Shown here: positions 11,870 through 20,177 of the stretch, piece after piece
Numbering within the stretch: position 1 is the first letter of the stretch
How the letters are laid out: each line of letters opens with the position of its first letter
Source of the DNA: Sporolactobacillus laevolacticus DSM 442
GTDB taxonomy: Bacteria > Bacillota > Bacilli > Bacillales > Sporolactobacillaceae
DNA length: 45,612 bases
Reading direction: 5' to 3'
Assembly (NCBI RefSeq): GCF_000497245.1
Contig: NZ_AWTC01000013.1
Location: forward strand, 49,816 to 95,427
Notes under the pieces: generated by a model
Database searches by the model: none
Seen by the model: the letters and a program-made list of their open reading frames with translations, nothing else
Told to the model about the DNA's origin: nothing
Translations under genes and position numbers: made by a program

Positions 11870-12910
11870 ATGGCAATAGTAAATACCAAAAGGAACATAT
11901 CCTATCCAACAGATTGCACATTTAGCGTGGAGGACTGGACCGTTCTGGCCAAATACTGGTATCCGGTGGCGAGAAGTGAAGAGGTAACAGACAAACCGCT
12001 GGCTGTTAAGCTGCTTGATGTTGAGTTGGTTGCATACCGTGCAAACGGCAAGCCCGTTGTCGCCCGCGATCTCTGCATCCATCGCGGAACACCGCTAAGC
12101 ATGGGATGGGTCGAAAATGATAACATTGTTTGCCCTTATCACGGATTCAGCTATGCCTCCGATGGACAGTGCGTCTCCATCCCAGCCCACCCTGAAGCAA
12201 AGATTTCGCCGCGTCTCTGCCTGACTGTTTTTCCCACCGTCGAGCGATACGGACTGGTCTGGACAACCTTAACCGGGGAAGAAGAAAAAGTTCCTCCGTT
12301 TCCGGCCTGGAAGGATCCTGACTATATTTCATTTATTGCTCCGGTAATCGATATTAATGGATCGGCCGGACGTCAAGTCGAAGGTTTCCTGGATGTCGCC
12401 CACTTCGCCTGGGTACATACGGACACGTTTGCCGATCGGAATAACGCGTTTGTTCCGAGCTATAAAGTAACTCGCACGGATGACGGTTTGCATACGGACT
12501 ATTTGAGTTCCGTCAGCAACTATCCGAAGGGCATGGAGGATCCGTCACCCGCCGATTTCAAATGGCTGCGGGAATACGATATCTATCCACCGCTCGCAGC
12601 TAGGCTGGTTGTTCATTTTCCGGATGATAAACTGCTCTGGATTCTGAATGCAGTCAGCCCGATCTCGGCGAGGAAAACGCGGCTCTTCTGTCCGATCGCC
12701 CAGAATTTCGATAAGAATCTGTCGATCGAGGATGCTTGTGCTTTCAATCTAAAGATTTTCAATGAGGATAAGGAAATGGTCGAGAACCAGAAACCGGAGG
12801 AACTGCCTCTTGATCTTATGGCTGAAGCACATATCATGGCCGACAAAACTTCAATTGCCTACCGCAAGCTGCTTAAGGAAATGGGACTCGGCAAGCACTA
12901 CACGAGTTAA
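11870..12910 (+). CDS. Rieske-type non-heme iron oxygenase, alpha subunit
   Basis: 346 residues from the ATG at 11870, which follows GGGAGGG. The Rieske [2Fe-2S] ligands are clear: C69-x-H71 in LCIHRG and C88-x2-H91 in CPYHGFSY. The catalytic iron site shows D175-x2-H178-x4-H183 in [13 protein letters not shown]. This is the layout of the VanA/phenoxybenzoate-type group that works as a single oxygenase chain with separate electron donors. A ferredoxin gene follows 32 bp later and a purine permease next, so the three look co-directional and co-regulated. The substrate is unknown. No uricase is present, so a purine ring such as urate is a candidate (inference); demethylation or hydroxylation of another purine is the alternative. 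Confidence 0.92.
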
Positions 12911-12942
12911 TGTACTTTGGTAAAAATGGAGGTGACCAATGT

Positions 12943-13200
12943 ATGAAGTATGTTATCGTCGACAAGGATACATGTATTGCATGCGGCGCCTGTGGGTGCG
13001 CAGCACCGGATGTCTTCGGTTACGATGATGATGGAATATCACAGGTTCTTCTCGATGGCAATCAGGGAACTGCGGAAATACCGGAAGACAGCCTGGATGA
13101 TGTCGTCGATGCCTATGAAGGGTGTCCGTCCGAATCCATTAAAATGAGTAATCAACCGTTCAATGGTGACCCCTTGAAAGAAGAGAATGAGGCAAGCTGA
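12943..13200 (+). CDS. Single-cluster [4Fe-4S]-type ferredoxin
   Basis: 85 residues from the ATG at 12943, placed after GGAGGTGACC. The N-terminal motif [17 protein letters not shown] gives C11, C14 and C17, and C61 in EGCPSES completes the set expected for a one-cluster ferredoxin; C19 is extra. The rest is acidic, as is usual for an electron carrier. It lies 32 bp after the Rieske oxygenase and probably donates electrons to it. No dedicated ferredoxin reductase is adjacent; the nearest flavoprotein is at 18765. Such ferredoxins also serve P450s, but none is present here. Confidence 0.92.
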
Positions 13201-18452: not shown

Positions 18453-18764
18453 TTTTACGACCACCTCTTTTTATCATAATTTTTTGAAAAAAGCTCTTCA
18501 TCATTATACTGCAAAATCATCTAATACTAAATTAACTCACGCCAGCAGCCTAGGTCATGAACAAATAGTACAAAAAGCTACCTCGTTATTTGGTTAAATT
18601 GTTTATTTCATCCATCCAAAATGATCATCCCATCGTTCTTCTAGTGAATTTGAATAATAAAAACAAGAAAATTTAGATATATCGCAATTGATCTATATGT
18701 ACGAAAATTATACTATAAATATAAATGATGTAACAAAACTTCACATCAAAGGAGTTGTGCGGCC
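18453..18764. promoter_or_regulatory. Divergent control region between the amidase operon and the flavoprotein gene
   Basis: 312 bp, A/T-rich, no gene. TTGGTTAA at 18590-18597 is a perfect copy of the B. subtilis PucR box core, but the flanking bases fit poorly. A TnrA/GlnR-like dyad lies at 18729-18745. A TACTATAAAT stretch near 18712 could be a -10 for the flavoprotein. Confidence 0.45.
18729..18745 (+). promoter_or_regulatory. TnrA/GlnR-like box before the flavoprotein gene
   Basis: TGTAACAAAACTTCACA matches all fixed positions of TGTNA-N7-TNACA. It lies 20 bp before the start codon and overlaps the ribosome binding region, a position that suits repression rather than activation. Confidence 0.45.
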
Positions 18765-20177
18765 GTGAGTCTGGAAGCGTTGAACGAACGAGTGAAACAA
18801 GATCTTTCTTATCTTGTTATGGATAGTCCGGATTGGGTTCGTCCGGTCAGCCATCCTGACGGCCATGTCTATGACGCGGTGATTGTCGGCGGTGGCCAAT
18901 GCGGCCTGGGTATTGCGTTCGGCCTCCTGCGTGAACGCATTTCCAATATTCTGGTCATTGATGAAAATGAGGAAGGCTTAGAGGGACCGTGGGTGACTTA
19001 CGCCCGCATGATAACATTAAGAACACCGAAACAGCTGACCCCTCTCGATTTTGGAATCCCATCTCTGACTTTCCGCTCCTGGTGGGAAGCGCAGTTTGGA
19101 GAGCAAAGCTGGGAAGCTATCGACAAAATCCCGCGCGGCGACTGGATGAACTATTTACGCTGGTACCGAAAAGTTCTCGGTCTCCCATTAAGAAATCAAG
19201 TAAAATTAAATGAAATCGAACCGTCGAAAGATGGTATTTACCGTCTGCGCGTCAGTGGGGATGGTACACGATCCGGAACACTGCTTGCCCGCAAAGTAAT
19301 CTTGTCGACTGGCATTCAGGGTGGAGGAAAATGGTATATTCCGCCGATGATTACGGAAAAGCTGCCGAAGAAACGCTATGCGCACACTTCTGAACTCATT
19401 GATTTTGATCGATTAAAAGGAAAGAAGATTGCTATTTTAGGCGGAGGCGCTTCCGCTTTCGATAATGCTAATTTCGCTCTGACAAAGGGTGCTGCTGAGG
19501 TTCATGTCTTCGTAAGGCGCAAAGAACTGCCGCGTGTCAATCCGATCCGCCAACTGGAGCCGTCCGGCCTGATTGAGCATTTTCATATGCTTGCCGATGC
19601 GGAAAAATATGCGATCATGGCTCATTTTTTCAAGCTAAATCAGCCGCCGACTAATGACATGTTCGCACGCGCATCTTCATGGCCAGGATTCCGGCTGCAT
19701 CTTGGTTCGCCTTGGCTCGACGTGGTGGATTCTGGCGACTCAGCATCAGTGAAGACCCCTCAGGGTACTTTCACTTTTGATTTTCTGATTATCAGCACCG
19801 GTCTTCGCACTGATCCCGCCCTTCGTCCGGAATTGAAACTTGTCGAAAGCCACATCGCCCGCTGGAGTGATCGGTACAATGCCCCTGAAGAAATTAAAAA
19901 TCCTGTCTTAGATGCACATCCCTACCTCAGTCCCGGCTTCTCGTTATTAAGCCGCGATGAAGAGGGCAAAAAACTGCTTCATGGTCTTTTTGCTTTTAAC
20001 TATTCGGCAATGATCAGTTGCGGTCTTTCCGCTTCTGCGCTATCCGGAATGAAATACAGCTTGCCGAGAATTGCACAAGCTGTTGCCGATGAGCTTTTTT
20101 CTGATGACCGCAATGACCATATAAAGAACTTTTTTTCGTATGATGAACCTGAATTTGTTGGAAACGATAACAGATGA
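18765..20177 (+). CDS. FAD/NAD(P)H-dependent monooxygenase-like flavoprotein
   Basis: 470 residues from a GTG at 18765, ten bases after AAAGGAG. The FAD-binding Rossmann motif is near residues 37-50 (YDAVIVGGGQCGLGIA). A second dinucleotide motif lies near residue 225 (KIAILGGGASAFDNA), as in flavin-containing (class B) monooxygenases, and DFLIISTGLRTDP is the C-terminal FAD/NADP contact. It differs from HpxO-type urate hydroxylases, which have a single Rossmann motif. It is divergent from the amidase-uraD-hiuH operon. It may oxidise a purine, or act as the reductase for the Rieske/ferredoxin pair; neither is shown. A bidirectional terminator follows. Confidence 0.85.
   Translation: MSLEALNERVKQDLSYLVMDSPDWVRPVSHPDGHVYDAVIVGGGQCGLGIAFGLLRERISNILVIDENEEGLEGPWVTYARMITLRTPKQLTPLDFGIPSLTFRSWWEAQFGEQSWEAIDKIPRGDWMNYLRWYRKVLGLPLRNQVKLNEIEPSKDGIYRLRVSGDGTRSGTLLARKVILSTGIQGGGKWYIPPMITEKLPKKRYAHTSELIDFDRLKGKKIAILGGGASAFDNANFALTKGAAEVHVFVRRKELPRVNPIRQLEPSGLIEHFHMLADAEKYAIMAHFFKLNQPPTNDMFARASSWPGFRLHLGSPWLDVVDSGDSASVKTPQGTFTFDFLIISTGLRTDPALRPELKLVESHIARWSDRYNAPEEIKNPVLDAHPYLSPGFSLLSRDEEGKKLLHGLFAFNYSAMISCGLSASALSGMKYSLPRIAQAVADELFSDDRNDHIKNFFSYDEPEFVGNDNR

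Follow-up and report, generated by a model that had tools for sequence, protein, structure and literature searches.

Purine degradation in bacteria has been described for two systems close to the locus reported here. In the puc system of Bacillus subtilis, PucL is a fusion of uricase with 2-oxo-4-hydroxy-4-carboxy-5-ureidoimidazoline (OHCU) decarboxylase (uraD), PucM is 5-hydroxyisourate hydrolase (hiuH), and PucD is xanthine dehydrogenase. The hpx system of Klebsiella pneumoniae was reportedly described by Riva et al. in 2008. Klebsiella hpx work on the Rieske protein HpxD is cited in the available portion of PMC7373994. According to the accessible text of a 2015 survey (PMC4562309), PuuD completes a repertoire of four urate oxidation genes; 12 of 1689 species were left unexplained, most of which were put down to gene-identification errors. 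Here we analyzed a 45,612-nucleotide stretch of Sporolactobacillus laevolacticus DSM 442 (the window; contig NZ_AWTC01000013.1, positions 49,816 to 95,427), which carries a uricolytic island with a Rieske oxygenase gene, a ferredoxin gene, and a flavoprotein gene. Taking the explanation as a whole, we regard it as likely that the island serves a purine breakdown independent of both molybdenum xanthine dehydrogenase and uricase. An earlier note on this DNA, made from the letters alone, had pointed to two oxidative systems in the island. Both exist, and they most likely serve different steps. The flavoprotein is, on genomic evidence, probably the urate-oxidase candidate of uricase-less Bacilli, whereas the Rieske protein most likely makes urate from xanthine and does not oxidize urate. 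The genes that carry this argument are the following.

11870..12910, forward strand: Rieske oxygenase, predicted HpxD-type xanthine hydroxylase (Pfam Rieske and VanA_C; identity to HpxD, tree, and pocket residues)
12943..13200, forward strand: single-cluster 4Fe-4S ferredoxin, predicted electron donor of the Rieske protein (Pfam Fer4_13 and Fer4_15)
13268..14605, forward strand: NCS2 xanthine/urate permease, PbuX-type (TIGR03173, 532.9 bits, above cut-off)
16305..16661, reverse strand: 5-hydroxyisourate hydrolase, hiuH (TIGR02962, above cut-off)
16743..17246, reverse strand: OHCU decarboxylase, uraD, not fused to uricase (TIGR03164, above cut-off)
18765..20177, forward strand: class B-like flavoprotein for flavin adenine dinucleotide (FAD) and NADPH, predicted urate 5-hydroxylase (Pfam Pyr_redox_3 and NAD_binding_9)

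The source assembly comprises 3.59 Mb and is 99.77% complete, and the profile searches were run on the whole genome. No match to uricase (PF01014), PuuD (PF06181), or the molybdenum hydroxylases (PF02738) was found genome-wide. The controls were positive for all three profiles, as uricase was detected in 2 of 14 control genomes (B. subtilis and Haloferax volcanii), PuuD in 1 of 14 (Caulobacter vibrioides), and PF02738 in 5 of 14. The HpxO family, FAD_binding_3, gave five partial matches in the genome. The best NCBIfam matches of these five open reading frames (ORFs) were of the amino-acid oxidase, glutamate synthase (two ORFs; small subunit), aminoacetone oxidase, and old yellow enzyme types. 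Three of these matches fell below the cut-off, and no HpxO model was among the 25 best NCBIfam matches shown for any of the five. The known urate oxidases uricase, PuuD, and HpxO were therefore not found in this genome, in agreement with the earlier note; HpyO was not searched for. The alternative raised there, that a uricase or xanthine dehydrogenase is encoded outside the window, finds no support in this 99.8%-complete assembly. The list of known enzymes on which that note relied (UaZ/PucL, HpxO, and PuuD) omitted HpyO and HpxD.

We determined the distribution of these genes in 38 related genomes, its own included (labels beginning with G denote genomes and those beginning with L denote loci). 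The hiuH gene was present in 16 of them. Twelve of these 16 possessed orthologues of both the flavoprotein (67–100% identity) and the Rieske protein (74–100%) and neither uricase nor PF02738; ten belong to the genus of the window and two are other members of the family, and the flavoprotein was matched in two pieces in G014 and G018. The other four (G021 of the same family; G023, G027, and G032 of the same order) possessed uricase and PF02738 and neither orthologue. No Rieske or flavoprotein orthologue was found in the 22 relatives without hiuH. The remaining matches were weak and short, with E values of 2e-5 to 5e-4 for the Rieske query (G015, G021, and G029) and 1e-5 to 3e-4 for the flavoprotein query (G019, G027, and G035).

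When 84,980 species genomes were scanned by a pattern-based method with the Rieske alignment, 367 relatives were obtained, and the 80 best loci were retained. Fifty of the 80 loci were chosen for genome searches and 48 were searched (L050 and L054 dropped out), the other 30 loci lying outside the counts. All 48 of these named genomes possessed hiuH. The flavoprotein was found at full or near full length in 31 (in two pieces in G042, and at about 44% identity in two alphaproteobacterial genomes), and uricase was found in 19. When the four alphaproteobacterial genomes were left out, the 44 Gram-positive genomes, all with hiuH, were divided into 25 with the flavoprotein only, 15 with uricase only, 4 with both, and none with neither (Fisher p = 1.7e-8, without correction for kinship). 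On the Rieske-protein tree, from which L099 was omitted as its Rieske gene was in two pieces, at least seven state changes were counted for the flavoprotein and at least eight for uricase. Uricase was opposite in all five supported independent contrasts in the flavoprotein (p = 0.0625); in the contrasts taken from uricase, the flavoprotein was opposite in five of six and did not differ in the sixth (p = 0.0625). Switches were also observed within single genera: Peribacillus asahii has the flavoprotein versus uricase in two other Peribacillus, and Priestia aryabhattai has the flavoprotein (a broken copy) versus uricase in P. megaterium and P. flexa. Xanthine dehydrogenase had no complementary relation to either the flavoprotein or uricase on the tree.

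The gene order gave a similar picture. Three loci (Bacillus sp. SA1-12, Bacillus bin RH59_bin.029, and Metabacillus niabensis) have the order pbuX-uraD-flavoprotein-hiuH, and Priestia megaterium and P. flexa have the order pbuX-[uraD/uricase]-hiuH. The flavoprotein takes the position of uricase in these three Bacillus-type loci. On the Priestia filamentosa plasmid CP136440 (L287), the order is NCS2 permease-uraD-uraH-flavoprotein, and in Novosphingobium PP1Y a flavoprotein gene (60% identity) lies between uraD and hiuH with overlapping ends. In the genus of the window, the flavoprotein and hiuH are in one island in 9 of the 10 hiuH genomes. Paenibacillus maysiensis and strain BJ-4, which have neither uricase nor PF02738, carry Rieske2-Rieske1-uraD/hiuH-allB-allC-pucG-flavoprotein. 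The proposal of the earlier note that a flavin-containing monooxygenase-type flavoprotein hydroxylates urate is thus well supported by the gene distribution and the gene order.

Two further observations were made on these operons. A Tn3-family transposase and a recombinase are located a few kilobases from the uricolytic operon on plasmid CP136440. A small MpsC-like protein is encoded next to the HpxD-type gene (L065:9416-9760, just below the Pfam cut-off) or next to the permease-uraD-uraH-flavoprotein operon (L287:6225-6569).

The best Pfam matches of the flavoprotein were PF13738 (63.0 bits) and PF13454 (49.6 bits). It contains two Rossmann domains with glycine motifs for FAD and for nicotinamide adenine dinucleotide (phosphate), NAD(P), in which Gly 42, 44, and 47 and Gly 226 and 228 were invariant in all 24 aligned sequences. 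A model built from this 24-sequence alignment had a mean predicted local distance difference test score (pLDDT) of 86; a model from 10 sequences (pLDDT 60) was set aside. The nearest solved folds were the N-hydroxylating monooxygenases PvdA, DesB, SidA, and KtzI, with a TM-score of 0.66 and 17% identity to PvdA. By its two Rossmann domains and its modelled fold, the flavoprotein is of the class B flavoprotein monooxygenase type. No meaningful similarity to Klebsiella HpxO was detected (21.6 bits, E = 0.05). We consider it somewhat probable that the flavoprotein represents another non-homologous urate hydroxylase family, one with a class B N-hydroxylating fold acting on a purine carbon, HpyO having been compared by description only. 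As part of the same proposal, the predicted family, taken as the clade above about 59% identity, would be widespread in Sporolactobacillus, Terrilactibacillus, Bacillaceae, and Paenibacillaceae, many soil bacilli included, and would occur also on plasmids and in sphingomonads. The urate role is claimed for this clade only, because the examined homologues of about 40–46% identity lie near molybdenum hydroxylases in alphaproteobacteria (G076, G079, and Mesorhizobium). In three of the four alphaproteobacterial genomes (G071, G079, and G080), PuuD lies beside hiuH or uraD; it was not found in the examined pieces of G076. The novelty would lie in the flavoprotein as a urate hydroxylase, HpxD and the overall layout being already known from Klebsiella.

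It is possible, though unlikely, that the flavoprotein instead belongs to the Xanthomonas HpyO family as a divergent member, in which case there would be no new family. The flavoprotein matches PF13454 above the cut-off, and we take HpyO to belong to that family. HpyO is described in the text seen of PMC4562309 as an FAD/NAD(P)H urate hydroxylase that is not homologous to HpxO. However, PF13738 and not PF13454 is the best match of the flavoprotein, and in the record of the Priestia plasmid the gene bears no more specific name than NAD(P)/FAD-dependent oxidoreductase. A tblastn search with hiuH in plasmids identified no HpyO neighbour. Among the open-licence papers listed in our searches there was no report of a flavoprotein urate oxidase of Bacilli or of a Rieske urate oxidase, which is no proof of absence from print. 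An annotation of "FAD-dependent urate hydroxylase" in B. paramycoides consisted of Gene Ontology labels only in the part of PMC10460076 at hand and could not be tied to the flavoprotein gene.

In regards to the Rieske protein, its identity to Klebsiella HpxD was 51% over 335 residues, and the record genes named hpxD showed 51–54% identity. Matches named hpxD, "molybdenum cofactor-independent xanthine hydroxylase," were found in the plasmid collection in one Klebsiella and one Paraburkholderia record, the name being the annotation of the records. In the tree, Klebsiella HpxD grouped with the Rieske1 sequences apart from the Rieske2 paralogues with a support of 100/100 (midpoint root, with long-branch warnings). 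The Klebsiella hpxD neighbourhood contains hpxO, an NCS2 permease, uraD, and uraH. The Rieske ligands C-x-H and C-x2-H and the iron site D-x2-H-x4-H were conserved in all 80 rows of the alignment. The purine-pocket Asn and Phe of the NdmA type were present in all 80 Rieske1 sequences, and Klebsiella HpxD has the identical pair. The protein was therefore filed as HpxD-type on the basis of its sequence. Since it is an HpxD orthologue with the same Asn/Phe pair, it is most likely an enzyme that makes urate rather than one that oxidizes it. The possibility of a previously undescribed xanthine hydroxylase was dropped, the Klebsiella hpx studies having already described HpxD. Among the loci found, the closest named Rieske gene was that of Sporolactobacillus kofuensis (89% identity). 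The start of the Rieske gene is likely ATG 11870. A phage search with the Rieske-ferredoxin DNA gave no match. One record filed as a Klebsiella plasmid, CP125156 (L310), is 5.37 Mb long, which is chromosome-sized, and is probably mislabelled.

A role of the Rieske protein as a methylxanthine N-demethylase of the NdmA kind was also considered and is less likely; we would call it improbable. NdmA and NdmB are among its closest solved structures, following SxtDIOX/SxtT, and the NdmA pocket pair is conserved in all 80 Rieske1 sequences. In the printed alignment, two NdmA chains from the PDB have different residues at two positions (Asn/Gln and Phe/Leu), one chain presumably being a mutant engineered at residues 282 and 286. 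The available section of PMC8055839 gives the name ndmA to a Bacillus aryabhattai homologue (E = 1e-50); that it is the same gene is a guess. However, the protein is 51–54% identical to HpxD, which has the same Asn/Phe pair, and genomes without any molybdenum hydroxylase could presumably not use the xanthine made by demethylation. A second Rieske paralogue, Rieske2 (33–38% identity), adjoins the HpxD-type gene in several of the loci that carry it (L050, L054, L060, L061, L066, L081, L097, and L267). In Rieske2, Gln replaces the pocket Asn in 9 of 9 rows, and this paralogue may act on another purine and is a candidate hydroxylase for another purine position.

The partners of the HpxD-type genes were compared among the loci. 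In the window, the Rieske gene is followed by the ferredoxin and then the permease, and GGAGGTGA precedes the ferredoxin start ATG 12943. In 17 of the 80 loci, a similar ferredoxin gene lies within the 2.6 kb that follow the Rieske gene. In the Paraburkholderia record, the genes after hpxD encode a rubredoxin and an FAD oxidoreductase; one Bacillus locus has a Pyr_redox_2 reductase gene adjoining the Rieske gene. The hpxD-named genes outside the window vary in their partners, and the electron partner of HpxD-type Rieske proteins seems to vary among loci. PF02738 was present in 29 of the 48 named genomes. Among the 44 Gram-positive genomes, 19 had no PF02738, 6 had only relatives of the PucD subunit at 26–28% identity, and 19 had the PucD type (16 measured at 55–65% identity and 3 judged by position near uricase and hiuH). 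HpxD without a PucD-type xanthine dehydrogenase was thus found in 25 of the 44 genomes and in the 12 relatives; all 12 of these relatives lacked PF02738.

Several results weigh against the proposed roles. The 44 genomes were selected by their Rieske gene and are not a random sample, and their completeness is not given. The five contrasts give only p = 0.0625, which is the minimum attainable with five pairs. Uricase and the flavoprotein occur together in four Paenibacillus genomes, which form one lineage. In two uricase-less genomes, G014 (assembled as one contig) and Priestia aryabhattai G042, the flavoprotein gene is split into two frames, through either sequencing error or decay. No hiuH was found in the examined stretch around the flavoprotein in 20 of 22 Paenibacillus/Cohnella genomes, where uraD-hiuH-allB-allC-pucG is retained in the purine operon whether or not xanthine dehydrogenase lies nearby, or in 4 of 7 Bacillaceae/Terrilactibacillus genomes. 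The alphaproteobacterial homologues of about 40–46% identity occur in other contexts, and one of them shares a genome with PuuD (G079); the wider flavoprotein family is therefore not all uricolytic. As for the Rieske gene, no ferredoxin is located close downstream in 63 of the 80 loci, and it occurs together with a PucD-type xanthine dehydrogenase in 19 of the 44 genomes, so HpxD is not strictly a substitute for xanthine dehydrogenase.

Some of these results would also be expected if the flavoprotein acted on another intermediate of the purine pathway and its complementarity to uricase were an accident of lineage. The small number of supported contrasts and the four genomes with both genes are in line with this explanation, which we nevertheless regard as improbable: the flavoprotein occupies the place of uricase in operons of several genera and accompanies uraD and uraH on a plasmid, and 37 hiuH genomes (12 and 25) would otherwise have no urate oxidase among those searched for. 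The earlier note had further proposed a Rieske-type urate hydroxylase, and its check of co-occurrence held, since the Rieske orthologue was found in 12 of 12 uricase-less hiuH genomes among the 38 relatives and hiuH in 48 of 48 named Rieske genomes; this co-occurrence does not imply that the Rieske protein oxidizes urate. That the Rieske-ferredoxin pair is the urate hydroxylase and the flavoprotein an accessory is highly improbable and was rejected, for although two Terrilactibacillus genomes have uraD-hiuH-Rieske-ferredoxin with the flavoprotein elsewhere and all 60 searched genomes with a Rieske orthologue have hiuH, uricase is also present in 19 of the 48 named Rieske genomes (in one locus with the Rieske gene in four Peribacillus-type genomes), it is the flavoprotein that is complementary to uricase, and the Rieske protein is orthologous to HpxD, whose gene in Klebsiella lies near the separate urate hydroxylase gene hpxO.

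Pfam and NCBIfam profile searches supported the complete uricolytic gene set within the window as the earlier note had listed it, including a free-standing uraD. The left part of the island, on the reverse strand, is ordered NCS1 permease, allantoinase, PucG-like aminotransferase, allantoate deiminase, PucR-like regulator, and a peptide-type binding protein. In the right part, Rieske-ferredoxin-PbuX permease (forward) is followed by two ORFs of an IS110 element, hiuH-uraD-amidase (reverse), and the divergent flavoprotein gene (forward). The other features are as follows.

1758..3215, reverse strand: NCS1 permease, allantoin-permease-like (NCBIfam ncs1, 330.6 bits, and PRK11375 allantoin permease, 318.5 bits, both below cut-off)
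3736..5130, reverse strand: allantoinase, AllB/PucH (NCBIfam PRK06189 and TIGR03178, above cut-off)
5147..6391, reverse strand: PucG-like aminotransferase (pyridoxal-phosphate aminotransferase matches below cut-off; the name PucG is our assumption from context)
6418..7659, reverse strand: allantoate deiminase, AllC/PucF (NCBIfam PRK09290.1-1, above cut-off)
7803..9515, reverse strand: PucR/CdaR-like regulator (weak NCBIfam matches; homologues recur in related purine loci)
14740-15972, reverse strand: IS110-family transposase in two ORFs (PF01548 part and PF02371 part)
17274..18464, reverse strand: amidase of the PRK08310 type (NCBIfam PRK08310, above cut-off)

The IS110 element separates the permease from hiuH in the window; in S. 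kofuensis (L047) the distance from the permease to hiuH is only about 350 bases. The PRK08310-type amidase is encoded repeatedly in uricolytic loci, those of Sporolactobacillus, Bacillus, and Metabacillus, with 47% identity in L236, L242, and L248. Three Rfam matches above the gathering thresholds were obtained in the window, none of which was a purine or xanthine riboswitch: a yjdF azaaromatic riboswitch aptamer at the left edge (54-155, reverse strand), a T-box leader (44254-44523, reverse strand), and a Bacillaceae-1 RNA (45537-45600, forward strand).

We consider it quite probable that the HpxD-type Rieske protein and the flavoprotein replace molybdenum xanthine dehydrogenase and uricase in the pathway from purines to glyoxylate. 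The substrates, products, electron path, and mechanism that we infer are as follows. Purines would enter via the PbuX-type permease, and the Rieske oxygenase would convert xanthine into urate with electrons from the adjacent ferredoxin and a reductase encoded elsewhere. The flavoprotein would bind FAD and NADPH, form a C4a-hydroperoxyflavin, and hydroxylate urate at C5 to give 5-hydroxyisourate, releasing water and avoiding the hydrogen peroxide (H2O2) of uricase. HiuH and UraD would then produce allantoin, and allantoinase, allantoate deiminase, and PucG would complete the route to glyoxylate.

If these assignments are true, one more urate oxidase would be added. It would account for urate breakdown in 37 of the examined Gram-positive genomes that lack uricase (12 relatives and 25 named genomes) and would give a function to a gene recorded only as an NAD(P)/FAD-dependent oxidoreductase. 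Non-homologous replacement would have occurred inside single genera (Peribacillus and Priestia). The flavoprotein together with HpxD would constitute an oxidative purine breakdown free of molybdenum and of H2O2-forming uricase, and a urate-degrading enzyme that is expected to make no H2O2 would be of interest for gout therapy.

The Klebsiella hpx system resembles the proposed make-up of the island in combining a Rieske purine hydroxylase with a flavin urate hydroxylase, an NCS2 permease, uraD, and uraH, and the two Rieske proteins are orthologues with 51% identity. It differs in that the flavoprotein of the island is not meaningfully similar to HpxO, the Rieske gene of the island adjoins a 4Fe-4S ferredoxin gene and not HpxE, which we take to be the reductase of HpxD, and the regulator is PucR-like as opposed to the LysR-type HpxR. 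The B. subtilis-type puc system shares the downstream enzymes, the PucR-like regulator, and the permeases, whereas uraD stands alone in the island and uricase and the molybdenum hydroxylases were not found in the genome. Xanthomonas HpyO, compared by its description in the accessible text of PMC4562309 only, hydroxylates urate with FAD and NAD(P)H, as is predicted for the flavoprotein here, and is not related to HpxO. PvdA, SidA, and KtzI share the modelled fold of the flavoprotein but hydroxylate the amine nitrogens of ornithine or lysine, whereas a purine carbon is proposed here. NdmA and NdmB share the Rieske family and the purine-pocket Asn and Phe with the Rieske protein of the island, to which HpxD (51% identity) is much closer.

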